From Blattabacterium sp. (Blatta orientalis) str. Tarazona (lineage in GTDB: Bacteria; Bacteroidota; Bacteroidia; Flavobacteriales; Blattabacteriaceae), in NCBI RefSeq assembly GCF_000334405.1, contig NC_020195.1, positions 186,001 through 250,000 of the forward strand: a DNA stretch of 64,000 nt, read 5' to 3'. The position numbers were made by a program, and so were the translations under genes. The notes under the pieces are model-generated. The model was not told where the DNA came from and ran no database searches. It was given only the letters and a program-made list of their open reading frames with translations. Within the stretch, counting starts at the first letter, position 1. The number at the start of each line of letters is the position of its first letter. Positions 25,128-50,477 of this stretch are shown here, piece by piece.

Positions 25128-27096
<1,969 letters not shown>

Positions 27097-27118: not shown

Positions 27119-27134
27119 AACGATACTTATCGTT
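27119..27134 (-). repeat. Inverted repeat in the groES leader
   Basis: AACGAT, loop ACTT, ATCGTT: a perfect 6-bp stem 23 bases upstream of the groES ATG. It overlaps the transcription start predicted from the -24/-12 element, so it could be an operator or a leader hairpin. Confidence 0.4.
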
Positions 27135-27137
27135 CAA

Positions 27138-27153
27138 AGCCAAAAACATGCCA
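27138..27153 (-). promoter_or_regulatory. Sigma54-like -24/-12 element upstream of groES
   Basis: The minus strand reads TGGCATGTTTTTGGCT. Against the sigma54 consensus TGGCACGNNNNTTGCW it keeps the invariant GG and GC doublets 10 bases apart and differs at two other positions. The predicted start near 27127 leaves a leader of about 31 bases. A sigma54 activator gene lies four genes upstream in the same strand. Sequence match only. Confidence 0.5.
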
Positions 27154-27183
27154 AATGTAAAAAATTCGAATTTTTTACATTTG
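27152..27183. repeat. Perfect 32-bp palindrome between secG and groES
   Basis: Positions 27152-27167 (CAAATGTAAAAAATTC) are the exact reverse complement of 27168-27183. It touches the -24 end of the groES element. It could be a terminator hairpin for the secG transcript, an operator, or an activator-binding site; the sequence does not decide. Confidence 0.8.
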
Positions 27184-27225
27184 TATAAAATTTAATGCCA
27201 TAATGACATATTTACTGTTTGTATT

Positions 27226-27450
27226 TTAATAATAAATTGAAAAAAAAGTTAAAAACAAGATAATGATAGATAAGGTCCAAGTTATTTTTTCCAAAAAAAT
27301 ATTAGTTCTCTTTATTCCAAAAAATCTAAAATTTTTCTCCATAAAAGATTGAGAAATAAATCCTTTTTTAGGATTTTGGATCAAAATTATCCCAATAAGA
27401 AACAAACATGTTAGAATAATAAAAAATCCAATAAGTATAGTTAAATACAT
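27226..27450 (-). CDS. secG: Preprotein translocase subunit SecG
   Basis: Small subunit of the SecYEG channel. Seen: two membrane helices (about residues 3-24 and 53-73) joined by a loop containing LIQNPKKGFISQSF, the family landmark. 74 residues, shorter than free-living relatives because the C-terminal hydrophilic tail is missing, which is common in SecG. Twelve bases after lptE, and upstream of groES, the standard Bacteroidota order. Confidence 0.88.
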   Translation of the reverse strand: MYLTILIGFFIILTCLFLIGIILIQNPKKGFISQSFMEKNFRFFGIKRTNIFLEKITWTLSIIILFLTFFSIYY

Positions 27451-27462
27451 TAATCGTTTTTT

Positions 27463-27933
27463 TTACCAATTATTAAATATTCTATTGTATAATTTTACTA
27501 CAAAATTTTTTGTAATTCGATCTATTATATAAGAATTATCCAGGAAAAAAACCTCCTCATGAGGAACTTTCTCTAAAATTTCAAAATTTTGAGTCCAATT
27601 TTTCTCTGGATTAGAATTATCTTTGCAAAAAATTTTTGCTTTTATTTCAATTATTTTCAATGGATAATTTTTTATTGAATGTATTTTATAATCAGTAATT
27701 TTCCCCTCTAAAAGAAGATCTCCATTTTTCAAAACTAAACCTAAAGGATTATGCAAAAGGATATAATCTTCGAATTTTTTTTTCATTTCAAATGAAAGAG
27801 ATTTTCCTGGGATATTTATTTCTTCCGAAAAATTTCCAAGTTCTATTGTTTTTTCTCTTTTGGAGGAATATACATGATTAAAAAATACAGTTAAACCAGT
27901 GATAAAAATAATCAGAATTTTCTTACAGACCAT
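27463..27933 (-). CDS. lptE: LptE-like lipopolysaccharide-assembly protein, without lipobox
   Basis: Resembles the Bacteroidota LptE protein that plugs the outer-membrane LptD pore. Seen: an N-terminal signal-type helix (residues 4-18), a mid region NGDLLLEGKITDYKI matching the family core, and the usual C-terminal ending in NW. 156 residues. Free-living relatives have a lipobox cysteine after the signal helix; here the segment reads VFFNHVYSSKRE with no cysteine, so lipid anchoring appears lost. Its start overlaps the end of the sigma54 regulator by 11 bases. The call leans partly on gene order. Confidence 0.75.
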   Translation of the reverse strand: MVCKKILIIFITGLTVFFNHVYSSKREKTIELGNFSEEINIPGKSLSFEMKKKFEDYILLHNPLGLVLKNGDLLLEGKITDYKIHSIKNYPLKIIEIKAKIFCKDNSNPEKNWTQNFEILEKVPHEEVFFLDNSYIIDRITKNFVVKLYNRIFNNW

Positions 27934-29215
27934 ATTGTTTGATTTTCCTATACAATGTTCTTTCTGAAATCCCTAACTCTCTAGCTGTTTTTCTCCTTTT
28001 TCCATTATTTTTTTTTAGAGCCTTTTGAATAAATTCTATTTCTTTTTTCTGTAAAGAAAAAGTGTTTGATTCGTTTTTATTAGTAGAATCTTCTTCTACT
28101 TCTTCATAATCAAAATCTTCATTTGTCGATGGATTTTTAGATGAATTAGAAGAATGTTCTAATCTAAATATAGAATCTTCTACTATAGATTTTACAGGAT
28201 TATTGGAGGGTTTGATCATATTTCCAAAAACTTTTTCCATAAGTTGTTGATTTTCTTCTAAAAAATTATTATTAGTATTATTTTTACTTTTTATCAATTG
28301 AAAGGTTAAATTTTTTAGATTATTCAAATTTTTTCTCATGTCAAACAAAATTTTATAAAGAAAATCTCTTTCATTTGAAAAATCATGAAAGAATTGTTCG
28401 TTATTTGAACTAGAAAATGATAAAGAAGGAATATTTTCTGGAAGATATTCTTTTAATTTTTCTATAGAAATTTCACGTTTTTTTCTAACTACAGATACTT
28501 GTTCTGTTAAGTTTTTTAATTGTCTAATATTTCCAGGCCAAGGATAATTTTCTAAATACTTAAAGGCATCTTCAGTAAGTTTTATTGGAGGCATGTGATA
28601 TTTTTCAGCAAAATCATTAGAAAATTTTTTAAACAATAATCTAATATCGTTCTTACGAAAACGTAAAGGAGGGACATTAATTTGTACAGTATTTAGACGA
28701 TAAAATAAATCTTCTCTAAATTTTCCTTTTTGAATAGATTCTATCATATTCAAATTAGTAGCAGCTACAATGCGTATATTAGTCTTTTGTATTTGAGAAG
28801 ATCCTACTTTAATAAATTCACCGGATTCTAAAACTCTAAGAAGACGAACTTGTGTAGTTAAAGGTAGTTCTCCTACTTCATCTAAAAAAATAGTTCCTCC
28901 ATCTGCCCCTTCAAAATATCCTTTACGCATACTTGTAGCCCCTGTAAAAGATCCTTTTTCGTGTCCAAATAATTCGCTATCAATTGTTCCTTCTGGAATA
29001 GCCCCACAATTTACAGCTATATAAGAATGATGTTTTCTACAAGAAAATTGATGAATAATTTTTGGAATGAATTCTTTTCCTACTCCACTCTCTCCAAGAA
29101 CTAATACAGAAATATCTGTAGGCGCTACTTGAACAGCTTTTTCCAAAGCTCTATGCAAGGAATATTCATTTCCAACAATACTAAATTTTTGTTTTATATT
29201 GTGAATAGATTCCAT
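27923..29215 (-). CDS. Sigma54-dependent transcriptional activator (AAA+, Fis-type HTH)
   Basis: Bacterial enhancer-binding protein that uses ATP to open sigma54 promoters. Seen: Walker A GESGVGKE (about 41-48), the sigma54-contact loop GSFTGA near 87-92 (usually GAFTGA), Walker B GGTIFLDEVGE near 107, arginine-finger region FREDLFYRL, sensor II GNIRQL, then a long Ser/Asn/Glu-rich linker (about 265-390) and a C-terminal Fis helix-turn-helix ARELGISERTLYRKI. There is no receiver or other sensory domain, so it starts directly with AAA+. 430 residues. Possible targets in this window are groES and dnaK. Confidence 0.93.
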   Translation of the reverse strand: MESIHNIKQKFSIVGNEYSLHRALEKAVQVAPTDISVLVLGESGVGKEFIPKIIHQFSCRKHHSYIAVNCGAIPEGTIDSELFGHEKGSFTGATSMRKGYFEGADGGTIFLDEVGELPLTTQVRLLRVLESGEFIKVGSSQIQKTNIRIVAATNLNMIESIQKGKFREDLFYRLNTVQINVPPLRFRKNDIRLLFKKFSNDFAEKYHMPPIKLTEDAFKYLENYPWPGNIRQLKNLTEQVSVVRKKREISIEKLKEYLPENIPSLSFSSSNNEQFFHDFSNERDFLYKILFDMRKNLNNLKNLTFQLIKSKNNTNNNFLEENQQLMEKVFGNMIKPSNNPVKSIVEDSIFRLEHSSNSSKNPSTNEDFDYEEVEEDSTNKNESNTFSLQKKEIEFIQKALKKNNGKRRKTARELGISERTLYRKIKQYGL

Positions 29216-29232
29216 GTATGGAATGGATTTTA

Positions 29233-30636
29233 TTATTTATTTTCATTGTCATCTATTTTTCCTATTAATGTGGCAGATGTACAATTAGTTATTTTCACAA
29301 AAACTGTTTCTCCTATCTTTGATAGCTTTTTTGGAAAAACTACCACAATATTTTGCGTATTCCGTCCATACCAATCTTGATTGTTTTTTTTGGATTTTCC
29401 TTCTATTAAAACTTCTTGTATTGTTCCCAAATATTTTTTCATTCGAAAAATAGAATGAATTCTTTGTAAATCAATAATTTCTTTTAATCTTCTTTTTTTT
29501 ACATTTTCTGGAACATTATCTTTTAATTTTTTATAAGCATAGGTTCCAGGCCTAGGAGAATAAGAAAACATGTACCCATAATCATATTTCACTTTATTCA
29601 TTAAGCTAATAGTTTCTAGATGATCTTCTTCTTCCTCATTACAAAAACCTGTTATAATATCATGTGAAATAGAACATTCAGGGACTATAGATCTAATTTT
29701 CTGTATTAGAGAAAGATATTTTTCTATGGTATATTTTCTATTCATCAGTTTTAATATTTTATTACTTCCTGATTGAACTGGTAAATGAATGTGTTTGCAT
29801 ATGTTAGAATGTTTTGAAATAACTTCTATCACTCTATCAGACATATCATGAGGATTAGATGTGGAAAATCGAATTCGCATAAATGGTATTTTTGAAGCTA
29901 ATAAATCCAAAAGTCTTGAAAAATCAATTATTTTTTCGTTGCTATTATCTATTTTTATCTTTTTTTTTAAACCACCCCCAAACCAAAGATAAGAATCTAC
30001 ATTTTGACCTAACAGAGTTACTTCTTTATATCCCTTTTCGTATAAGTTTTCACATTCTTTAATTATAGAATATGGACTACTGCTTCTTTCTCTTCCTCTT
30101 GTAAAAGGAACTATGCAAAACGTACACATATTATCACATCCTCTTGTTATACTTAAAAAAGTGGTTATCTTTTTTTTATTATGGATAGGGACTAATATTT
30201 TCATATGTTTCATCTTGATTATCAGATAATAAAAATGGATTTTTATTTTTTTTTCATCATTCATCATAACTAAACGAATGATATCAGGTATCTTTCTATA
30301 AGAATTTGGACCTATAGAAAAATCTATTAGATTTGAATATTTTTCTGATTTTGATAAACATCCAAGAATCCCAAATAATGGAATTTTTTGATTATTTGAT
30401 TTTAAATATCTTAAATTATCTAATCTTTTTTCAATAGATAGTTCTGCTTTCTTCCGTATTGCACATGTATTGAGTAGGATAATATGAGCTTTTTTTAAAT
30501 TATTTGTTAATAAAAATCCATTTTTTGATAGGATTGAAATTATTATTTCAGTATCAGAAGTATTCATATGACAGCCATAACTTTCTATATAATAGAAAAA
30601 TGGAGTTTTTAATGTGCTTAAAAAATTTTTTTTCAT
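29233..30636 (-). CDS. miaB: tRNA-2-methylthio-N6-dimethylallyladenosine synthase
   Basis: Radical-SAM methylthiotransferase that adds a methylthio group to the i6A37 made by MiaA. Seen: the N-terminal cluster cysteines C22 (ESYGC), C58 (NTCA) and C93 (GCL); the radical-SAM cluster C167-x3-C171-x2-C174 in CDNMCTFC; and a C-terminal TRAM-like domain (from about 405). 467 residues, normal. miaA is encoded at 9132, so the full ms2i6A pathway is kept. The gene is 17 bases upstream of the sigma54 activator on the same strand. Confidence 0.95.
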   Translation of the reverse strand: MKKNFLSTLKTPFFYYIESYGCHMNTSDTEIIISILSKNGFLLTNNLKKAHIILLNTCAIRKKAELSIEKRLDNLRYLKSNNQKIPLFGILGCLSKSEKYSNLIDFSIGPNSYRKIPDIIRLVMMNDEKKIKIHFYYLIIKMKHMKILVPIHNKKKITTFLSITRGCDNMCTFCIVPFTRGRERSSSPYSIIKECENLYEKGYKEVTLLGQNVDSYLWFGGGLKKKIKIDNSNEKIIDFSRLLDLLASKIPFMRIRFSTSNPHDMSDRVIEVISKHSNICKHIHLPVQSGSNKILKLMNRKYTIEKYLSLIQKIRSIVPECSISHDIITGFCNEEEEDHLETISLMNKVKYDYGYMFSYSPRPGTYAYKKLKDNVPENVKKRRLKEIIDLQRIHSIFRMKKYLGTIQEVLIEGKSKKNNQDWYGRNTQNIVVVFPKKLSKIGETVFVKITNCTSATLIGKIDDNENK

Positions 30637-30689
30637 CTCATTTATAAAATTATTTATGAATGATTATAATAAAGGTAAAAAAATAAAAT

Positions 30690-30707
30690 GTCATTATGTC
30701 ATAATTG
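30690..30707. promoter_or_regulatory. Imperfect dyad between pncB and miaB
   Basis: TCATTATG, T, then CATAATTGA. The left arm equals the left arm of the perfect dyad upstream of dnaK (50336-50352), the right arm differs by one inserted T. It lies 53 bases upstream of the miaB start. Confidence 0.35.
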
Positions 30708-44509: not shown

Positions 44510-44830
44510 TTGCTATTAAAAAAAATTATAGAAGGGATTCAAATAGTAAAAGGTGAAGATATTTCTGTTTTAAACTTAAAAAATAGAAATAATTTTGTTT
44601 GTGACTATTTTGTTGTTTGTAATGGAGAATCTAAAAATCAAGTTTATGCTATATATAAATCCATAGAAAAGATTACAATTGAAAAGTTAAAAAAAAAACC
44701 CTGGCATATAGAAGGTTTAAAAAATAGAGAATGGATATTGATAGATTATGTTTCTATTGTTGTACATGTTTTTCAAAAAAGAGTCAGATTATATTATAAC
44801 ATAGAAAATATTTGGACAATAAATTTATAG
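44510..44830 (+). CDS. rsfS: Ribosomal silencing factor RsfS
   Basis: Binds L14 on the large subunit and prevents subunit joining. Seen: KKIIEGIQIVKGEDISVLNL, CDYFVVCNG, KPWHIEGL and the VVHVFQKRVRLYYNIENIW end, all strongly conserved in RsfS. 106 residues. There is no ATG in front: the frame is open from a TAA at 44474 and the only usual start codon is the TTG at 44510, which leaves a normal N-terminus. Its target L14 is encoded at 63339. Followed by ftsH, the usual Bacteroidota order. Confidence 0.9.
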   Translation: MLLKKIIEGIQIVKGEDISVLNLKNRNNFVCDYFVVCNGESKNQVYAIYKSIEKITIEKLKKKPWHIEGLKNREWILIDYVSIVVHVFQKRVRLYYNIENIWTINL

Positions 44831-48391: not shown

Positions 48392-50296
48392 TCATTTTAC
48401 TTCTTCATAATCCACATCCTGTACATTCTCATTTCCTTTGTTTCCTTTATTATTTTTTTCTTCATTTTCAGAATTATCTGTATGACTCTTTGTTTTGGAA
48501 GCCGCGTAGATTTCTTGCGAAGCATTTGTCCAAGCTTCGTTTAATTTTTTCATACAAATTTCAATTTTCGAAAAATCTTTTTTAGAATACGCTTGTTTTA
48601 ATTCTTCCAAAGAATTTTCTATATTTTTTTTATTATTATCAGATAATTTATCTCCATAATCTTTTAATTGTTTTTCTGATTGAAAAATTTGATTATCTGC
48701 GACATTTAATTTATCTATTTCTCCTTTAATTTTTTCATCTTTTTGAGCATTTTCTTCTGCTTCTTTTTTCATTTTTTCTATTTCATCTTGACTTAATCCA
48801 GATGAAGTTTCAATACGTATAGATTGTTCTTTTCCTGTTCCTTTATCTTTTGCGGAAACATGAAGTATTCCACTGGCATCAATATCAAAACTTACCTCTA
48901 TTTGAGGGGTTCCTCTAGGAGCAGGAGGAATATCTACTAAATCAAATCTCCCTATTTCCTTATTATCATTAAACATAGGTCTTTCTCCTTGTCCTACTCG
49001 GATAGTTACTGCAGACTGATTATCTGCTGCTGTAGAAAAAACCTCTGATTTTTTAGTAGGAATAGTAGTGTTTGATTCAATCAGTTTCGTAAAAACACCG
49101 CCTAATGTTTCAATTCCTAAAGATAAAGGAGTTACATCAAGTAACAAGACGTTTTGAACATCTCCAGTTAAAACACCTCCTTGTATAGCCGCCCCAATAG
49201 CAACTACTTCATCCGGATTAACCCCTTTGGATGGTTTCCTTTGAAAAAAATTTTCAACTCCTTCCTGAACCTTAGGAATCCGAGTCGATCCTCCTACCAA
49301 AATAACCTCATCAATATCTTTAGTAGTTAGTCCAGCATCCTTCAAGGCTTTAGTACAAGGATTAATGGATCTACGTATTAAATTCTCAGACAATTGTTCA
49401 AATTTAGCACGAGTTAATGTAAGAACTAAATGTTTTGGACCTGATTCTGTAGCTGTAATGTATGGTAGATTAACCTCTGTTTGAGTAGAAGAAGATAATT
49501 CAATTTTTGCTTTTTCTGAAGCTTCTTTTAAACGTTGTAATGCCATAGGATCTTTTCTTAAATCTATTCCTTCTTTAGATTTAAATTCATTCGCGAAGTA
49601 ATCTATGATAACTTGATCAAAATCATCTCCTCCTAAGTGAGTGTCTCCATTAGTAGAAAGAACTTCAAAAACTCCATCTCCTAATTCCAGTATGGAAACA
49701 TCAAAAGTCCCTCCTCCTAGATCATATACCGCTATTTTTTTATTTTGATTGTTTTTATCTAATCCATATGCCAATGCAGCCGCAGTAGGTTCATTAATAA
49801 TTCTTTCTACTTGTAGTCCAGCTATTTCTCCTGCTTCTTTAGTAGCCTGTCTTTGAGCGTCATTAAAATATGCAGGAACAGTGATCACTGCTTTATTCAC
49901 TTCTTTTCCTAAATAATCCTCAGCAGTTTTTTTCATTTTTTGAAGAATCATAGCAGATATTTCTTGAGGAGCATATAACCGATTTTCTATATCAACACGA
50001 GGTGTATTATTTCCTCCTTTTACTACTTTGTAAGGAACATGTTTTAATTCTTCCGTTATTTCAGAATACATCCTCCCCATGAAACGTTTGATCGAGAAAA
50101 CAGTTTTTTGTGGATTTGTAACTGCTTGTCTTTTTGCAGGATCTCCTATTTTTCTTTCTCCACCTTCTACAAAAGCTACTATAGATGGAGTAGTTCTTTT
50201 TCCTTCTGAATTAGGTATAACAACAGGATCATTTATCTCCATGACGGAAACACAAGAATTTGTTGTTCCTAAATCTATTCCTATAATTTTACTCAT
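48392..50296 (-). CDS. dnaK: Chaperone DnaK (Hsp70)
   Basis: ATP-driven chaperone for unfolded proteins. Seen from the ATG at 50296 ([14 protein letters not shown]): phosphate-1 loop at 4-14, [10 protein letters not shown] near 190, [10 protein letters not shown] near 330, the substrate domain with [12 protein letters not shown], and the C-terminal DVDYEEVK tail. 634 residues, normal. The frame extends 13 codons further upstream, but the family start is clear. The upstream region carries a perfect dyad and a -24/-12-like element instead of a TAnnTTTG box. No dnaJ or grpE is adjacent. Confidence 0.98.
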
Positions 50297-50330: not shown

Positions 50331-50352
50331 TCCAATCATTATGCCATAATGA
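50331..50352 (-). promoter_or_regulatory. Perfect dyad overlapping a sigma54-like element upstream of dnaK
   Basis: TCATTATG-C-CATAATGA (50336-50352) is an exact 8-1-8 inverted repeat. On the minus strand it overlaps TGGCATAATGATTGGA (50346-50331), which matches the -24/-12 consensus TGGCACGNNNNTTGCW except at the C of GC and two looser positions. A start near 50320 would leave a 24-base leader before the dnaK ATG. Confidence 0.5.
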
Positions 50353-50477
50353 AGTTATAGAATCTATGACAAAAATAAGCTTTTACATCAATAAAGAAAT
50401 TGAGTTTTTATATGACAAAAAGTCACTAATATTAAATTTTTTTTGAAAAAATCTTATATTACAGTTAAAATTGAAAA

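Follow-up and report, generated by a model that had tools for sequence, protein, structure and literature searches.

The PspF protein of Escherichia coli consists of an AAA+ domain and an HTH domain with no N-terminal sensor, and it exerts negative control over its own sigma-70 promoter via its own binding sites. The HrcA/CIRCE system controls groE and dnaK through a palindromic site located near groES and dnaK. In Flavobacterium psychrophilum, sigma-54 (SM4) transcription starts have been mapped at groES-groEL, dnaK, lon, grpE-dnaJ, htpG and clpB, as part of a regulon that also contains gliding and other genes; three PF00158 proteins are predicted in this species, none of which the accessible text of that study assigns to the chaperones (PMC9723704). 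A 2025 survey predicted a sigma-54 chaperone cluster across Bacteroidota and Planctomycetota, with GroES, GroEL, DnaK, GrpE and DnaJ enriched among the predicted sigma-54 targets, most strongly in Flavobacteriia (PMC12316311). For this cluster the survey, in its accessible text, gives no activator, operator or autoregulation, and it does not discuss reduced endosymbionts; its statement that GroES of B. thetaiotaomicron is sigma-54-dependent cites reference 80, a paper on nitrogen in Blattabacterium that is apparently misnumbered. Sigma-54 control of groES and dnaK is already known in Flavobacteriia (PMC9723704), and the remark in the original prediction that this is not an established arrangement in Bacteroidota was wrong, given the mapped starts of F. 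psychrophilum and the phylum-wide prediction (PMC12316311). Finally, that Blattabacterium, Walczuchella and Uzinura still have rpoN has been called unusual, and in Walczuchella the gene was tentatively tied to nitrogen use (PMC3971599).

Here we analyse a 64,000-nt stretch of Blattabacterium sp. (Blatta orientalis) str. Tarazona, positions 186001-250000 of the 638-kb genome (hereafter ‘the window’). Blattabacterium belongs to the same class of bacteria as F. psychrophilum and resembles it in its sigma-54 starts at groES-groEL and dnaK, which are here predicted from sequence; it differs in that we find a single strong activator, and TGGCAY-type sites at no genes other than groES and dnaK. As in PspF, the Blattabacterium activator combines an AAA+ domain with an HTH and lacks a sensor, and self-control is part of our proposal; unlike PspF, it has a linker of ~125 residues, chaperone targets, and a co-oriented operon with miaB in place of a divergent gene. 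With the NCBIfam PspF equivalog model the activator obtains 276 bits, below the cut-off of 443.55. With HrcA/CIRCE the system shares a palindrome near groES and dnaK, although its sequence is different in Blattabacterium.

Table 1. Features of the groES, dnaK and miaB-activator regions; positions are those of the window
Feature	Position	Strand	Basis or remark
groEL	25128..26768	-	PF00118
groES	26818..27096	-	PF00166
groES -24/-12 element TGGCATGTTTTTGGCT	27138..27153	-	16-mer located in sequence
groES operator candidate TGTCATTATGGCA (groES strand)	27196..27208		55 bp upstream of -24 TGG
small membrane protein, presumably SecG-like	27226..27450	-	translation
gene overlapping activator, which we take to be LptE-like	27463..27933	-	no Pfam or NCBIfam match
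sigma-54 activator (bEBP), 430 aa	27923..29215	-	PF00158 (219 bits), PF25601, PF02954
miaB, leading gene of the activator’s gene run	29233..30636	-	TIGR01574 above cut-off
possible sigmaA -7 box TACCTTTA, downstream of third operator	30670..30677	-	analogy with other Bacteroidota
third operator TGACATAATGACA, upstream of miaB-activator	30689..30701		sequence match
dnaK	48392..50296	-	PF00012; start assumed to be the ATG at 50296
dnaK -24/-12 element TGGCATAATGATTGGA	50331..50346	-	16-mer located in sequence
dnaK operator variant TGACTTTTTGTCA (dnaK strand)	50413..50425		79 bp upstream of TGG

Promoter elements upstream of groES and dnaK

Both 16-mers proposed as -24/-12 elements were found at the positions and on the strand given in the original prediction (Table 1), and its leader lengths of 31 nt for groES and 24 nt for dnaK agree with the coordinates; transcription is predicted to start near 27127 and 50320, respectively. 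Within a single window the elements are only suggestive: TGGCAYN7GSW matches the window three times against 0.73 expected, and 3 of 100 shuffles also reach three matches. When we searched the window for TGGCAYRNNNNTTGCW with up to two mismatches we obtained 21 matches against 13.6 expected, and in the whole genome TGGCAYN7GSW has five matches, the groES and dnaK elements among them, as compared to four for the reversed-pattern control.

As one window is weak evidence, the case for real elements comes from their conservation in the genus. Among 49 Blattabacterium genomes, which as relatives are not independent samples, TGGCAYN7GSW is found upstream of groES in 48 (Markov expectation 0.10, from first-order regenerated sequences, not exact shuffles), and the 16-mer TGGCATGTTTTTGGCT is identical in 45; upstream of dnaK the core TGGCAYN6TG is present in all 49 (Markov expectation 0.15), and the 14-mer TGGCATAATGATTG is identical in 46. 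The GG at -24 within TGGCAY, as well as the G at -13 at a fixed spacing from it (TGGCAYN7G), is kept in 48/49 genomes at groES and 49/49 at dnaK. The substitutions TGGCACATTTTTGGCA (G011), TGGCATATTTTTAGCT (G019) and TGGCATGTTTTTGGCA (G026) are compatible with a -24/-12 element; the exception is the Blattabacterium genome G015, in which the groES element has decayed (TGGTATGTTATTAGCT) and the operator described below is absent. The doublets, expected to be conserved in relatives, are thus kept across the genus except for one letter: the base at -12 is C at groES, and G, A or T, never the usual C, at dnaK in 49/49 genomes.

The elements also extend to other Bacteroidota, a set made up of 26 genomes of the order and of loci from the activator set described below, with gut and other host-associated species included (promoter and operator counts leave out G063, an endosymbiont with loci L128 and L235; loci L171 and L223 are labelled Alphaproteobacteria and are probably mislabelled bins). 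TGGCAYN7G lies within 120 nt of the gene at 69/71 groES and 20/26 dnaK loci, and five further dnaK genes have TGGTAY. At -12, unlike in the textbook GC doublet, C is the minority letter in these bacteria (20/71 groES and 5/25 dnaK; loci L129-L261). As the phylum thus commonly has other letters at this place, the GG at dnaK is probably no defect.

TAnnTTTG is the -7 box of sigmaA promoters in Bacteroidota, and both chaperone genes had been described as lacking it. To the letter this does not hold, since the window has such boxes at groES (TACATTTG, 27152-27159) and at dnaK (TATTTTTG, 50370-50377); the boxes are, however, not conserved: any TAnnTTTG within 150 nt of the gene is found in only 2/49 genomes for groES and 3/49 for dnaK.

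The activator and its candidate operator

A complete rpoN gene, which had been sought elsewhere in the genome, is present and encodes all three domains (activator-interacting, core-binding and DNA-binding, as judged by profile matches); rpoN is found in 49/49 genomes of the genus. The protein encoded upstream of groES has the layout of a sigma-54 activator: an AAA+ domain with the Walker A motif GESGVGKE, a GSFTGA loop, a lid, a linker and a C-terminal Fis-type HTH (PF02954). The loop variant GSFTGA, in place of GAFTGA, is seen in 31/76 Bacteroidota homologues (the 80 loci below minus four whose activator frame escaped the loop pattern). As anticipated, there is no N-terminal sensory domain, since the AAA+ domain begins at residue 13. 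Each of the 49 genomes encodes exactly one strong PF00158 protein (215-228 bits), whose AAA+ match lies 1.1-2.0 kb away from groES; the next best match scores 40 bits, and we read the 40-bit matches as other AAA+ ATPases, ClpB among them. The linker between lid and HTH (window 28043-28429, residues ~263-391) has no Pfam match. In the AlphaFold2 model, which has a mean pLDDT of 74.8 and is weak at the GAFTGA-loop region and in most of the linker, a helix is predicted at residues 279-310 (block pLDDT 41-85); an alignment of 38 homologues shows partial conservation of its sequence (consensus EREILYKxLFDMKKDLNDLKKL), and it is possibly a docking site for a regulator. ATPase activity, DNA binding and open-complex formation are predicted properties of the protein.

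The candidate operator of this activator is a 13-bp site, TGNCA-N3-TGNCA. It is found upstream of groES in 48/49 genomes of the genus (with A or G as the last base), as a perfect palindrome in 32 of these and an imperfect one in 16, the copy in the window included. In six of the 32 perfect palindromes both arms depart from the common TGT..ACA (TGA..TCA or TGC..GCA), paired changes as expected of a dimer site. Upstream of dnaK the strict form is found in 0/49 genomes, and a variant, TGAC-W5-GTCA, in 46/49 (0.02 expected); as this site sits between dnaK and a divergent gene on the rplM side, the latter could be its target. In other Bacteroidota the strict operator is absent upstream of 31/71 groES and 14/26 dnaK genes, with a chance presence of 0.3 and 0.1, respectively; single TGNCA half-sites occur in all 71 groES regions, a count made without a chance control. 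We kept 80 of the 589 activator loci found. Of the 82 operator matches in these, 42 precede miaB and 31 groES, so that 73 fall within upstream regions that together make up 3.4% of the bases. In one species (G009; loci L086 and L119) an A-rich stretch separates groES from its element and operator, which lie ~200 nt ahead of the gene, and a long leader is therefore predicted there.

The distance between operator and promoter follows the DNA helix. In other Bacteroidota the operator lies 25, 35-36, 45-48, 55-57, 66-67, 75-78 or 86-89 bp from the TGG, and the phasing resultant of 0.88 (48 of 51 distances; three above 100 bp, namely 123, 145 and 180, were dropped) is at its maximum at a period of 10.5 among periods from 5 to 20, with 0/100,000 random placements reaching 0.88. 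With the distances above 100 bp kept, groES alone gives 0.75. The groES operator of Blattabacterium is in the common phase (3.3 bp as compared to 3.8 bp in other Bacteroidota), and dnaK, at 5.5 bp, is less close, being off the mean by ~1.7 bp; in three other endosymbionts of two genera the distances are 36, 46 and 57 bp. Spacing at multiples of the helical turn is the pattern expected from selection for one face of the helix, with the caveat that relatives are not independent.

Furthermore, the same operator precedes the operon of the activator itself. It is found upstream of miaB in 34/48 genomes of the genus and missing in 14 (G027, in which the miaB start is outside the sequence stretch, was left out), and at 42/50 loci of other Bacteroidota against 0.18 expected (30 of the 80 loci, without a usable miaB start, were left out). 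No sigma-54 element was found upstream of miaB, either as TGGCAYN6TG (0/50 other Bacteroidota) or as TGGCAYN7G (0/48 genomes of the genus). In other Bacteroidota TAnnTTTG follows the operator by 16-20 nt at 34/42 loci. This places the operator over the -33 region of a promoter of sigmaA type, and an activator bound there should repress its own synthesis. Autorepression of the activator’s own operon is what we infer from this arrangement. The geometry is less clear in the window because the gap between the operator and TACCTTTA is only 11 nt, as compared to 16-20 nt elsewhere; the clean -33/-7 arrangement is that of other Bacteroidota and not of the window.

Regulon size and joint absence with rpoN

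To delimit the regulon we used pattern searches for TGGCAY-type sites in place of a -24/-12 matrix. TGGCAYN7G has 27 matches in the genome of strain Tarazona as compared to 16 for the reversed control, and all except those at groES and dnaK fall within a coding frame or rRNA. We rejected 23 of the 27 as lying inside mechanical frames of at least 90 aa (one, at 296760, within 23S rRNA), as well as the match at 230702 inside the RsfS gene (window 44510-44830, PF02410) and that at 292874 inside 16S rRNA; at the dnaK site the sole overlapping frame is a 93-aa antisense one, in our view spurious. The other TGGCAYN7GSW matches in this genome (219504, 310983 and 450122) are likewise in coding frames, and a match that recurs across the genus near 261 kb (TGGCATAAAAATAGGA, among the matches listed) is within tgt (PF01702) and antisense to it. 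At clpB, a sigma-54 target in F. psychrophilum, we found neither the element nor a TGNCA within 160 nt in any of eight Blattabacterium genomes checked (Tarazona and seven others). With TGGCAY-N7-G restricted to groES and dnaK, rpoN may be retained for the sake of these chaperones, and the chaperone regulon is probably the main, perhaps the only, reason for its survival in the genus.

In the family as a whole (Blattabacteriaceae, order Flavobacteriales) rpoN is present in 55/68 genomes. Outside the genus there are 19 family genomes, 17 of which have an identified groES (six with rpoN and 11 without). The six rpoN-positive endosymbionts carry the groES element in 4/6, the operator in 3/6 and an activator adjoining groES in 6/6 cases; in the rpoN-negative ones the element, the operator and the adjacent activator (sought within 1.5 kb of groES) are all at 0/11, so that the groES element is indeed absent from relatives without rpoN. 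As they comprise only three genera, the 11 genomes represent few independent losses. One of them, G177, has a lone TGGCAY at -23 without the G at -13.

Two rpoN-positive genomes, G189 and G190 (L309 and L310), have no groES element or operator and no operator upstream of miaB. These small endosymbiont genomes have retained rpoN and the groES-adjacent activator despite the loss of the groES sites.

Proposed circuit, alternatives and implications

The prediction that the main chaperones may be sigma-54-controlled is supported: rpoN is present, the elements are conserved in the genus, and the one at groES is absent from relatives without rpoN. We now consider it highly likely that sigma-54 and a dedicated activator, acting at a shared operator, drive groES-groEL and dnaK, and that the activator represses itself. 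On the observed side this proposal has the promoters, the operators, their phasing, and the presence and joint absence of the genes. The two -24/-12 promoters would be used by RNA polymerase with sigma-54 to transcribe groES-groEL and dnaK. The activator, whose gene sits just ahead of groES, would bind the 13-bp palindrome, probably as dimers, at a distance (Table 1) that would place it on the helical face from which its AAA+ ring can reach the closed complex, which it would open with ATP. It would also bind the palindrome before miaB-activator, where we found no sigma-54 promoter; in other Bacteroidota, sitting on the -33 region of a sigmaA-type promoter, it would repress its own synthesis. 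As the activator has no sensory domain, output would probably be set by its amount under negative feedback, perhaps also by a partner acting on the linker. Binding, activation, autorepression and the signal are thus the inferred parts of the scheme. To a broader formulation we give equal credence for and against: that the main chaperones of Bacteroidota are run by a dedicated sensor-less sigma-54 activator, which through one shared 13-bp operator would switch on helically phased sigma-54 promoters and hold down its own operon, driven by sigmaA; in Blattabacterium the circuit would have shrunk to groESL and dnaK and would be the sole reason that sigma-54 survives in a 0.6-Mb endosymbiont.

Could the TGGCAY elements and palindromes instead be operators of another, non-sigma-54 heat-shock regulator, with the genes read from sigmaA promoters? 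The dnaK element is readable as an inverted repeat (TTATGGCATAA in 42/49 and CATTATGGCATAATG in 27/49 genomes), and the window does have TAnnTTTG boxes upstream of both genes. However, TGGCATAAT[GC]ATTG is kept in 49/49 genomes, including seven without the repeat, while the repeat is found at 0/26 dnaK genes of other Bacteroidota, 25 of which have TGG[CT]AY at the place of the promoter; the sigmaA boxes, as described above, are confined to two or three genomes of the genus, and relatives without rpoN have neither the groES element nor its operator. Moreover, a search of the window for the CIRCE inverted repeat, with up to three mismatches allowed, gave no match, and the groES and dnaK starts of F. 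psychrophilum carry the sigma-54 motif (PMC9723704). We therefore regard this explanation as highly improbable. A milder objection lets sigma-54 drive both chaperone genes, but assigns the palindrome to some other DNA-binding protein and does away with autorepression of the activator; it strikes us as unlikely. It draws on the fact that operator binding by the activator is a prediction, on the 31 of 71 groES genes of other Bacteroidota that lack a strict palindrome upstream, and on a word, TCATTATGGCAT, that occurs in the window both in the groES palindrome and in the -24 region of dnaK, so that operator and -24 motif classes could be confused. Set against it are the single strong activator of Blattabacterium, the helical phase between palindrome and -24 box, and the position of the palindromes, 42 of the 82 in the activator loci preceding the activator’s own operon.

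It is also decidedly unlikely, in our view, that nitrogen-related genes account for the retention of rpoN, a suggestion made in print for Walczuchella (PMC3971599), with the chaperone sites a side target. Our genome-wide search covered TGGCAY-type sites, and sites with TGGTAY or other variants may exist beyond it; but once coding frames and rRNA are set aside, only two of the 27 TGGCAYN7G matches are left, those at groES and dnaK, and the one activator carries neither a receiver nor any other sensing domain at its N-terminus.

For the preferred reading, sigma-54 control of the chaperones through a dedicated activator, a literature search did not find this activator, its operator, its autoregulation or the Blattabacterium regulon, an absence that is weak evidence because most subscription journals and all bioRxiv preprints were outside the search. 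New here are the 13-bp operator, its helical phasing, the operator of the miaB-activator operon and the absence of groES element, operator and adjacent activator where rpoN is missing. For this regulon, which going by the accessible text on F. psychrophilum (PMC9723704) had no assigned activator, we propose a candidate activator together with an operator and a feedback loop. As to why Blattabacterium retains rpoN, the present data point to chaperones instead of nitrogen use. The presence of the same operator before the activator’s own operon suggests a self-limiting circuit, which may be the reason that such small genomes keep sigma-54, and chaperone control in much of a phylum becomes open to simple tests.
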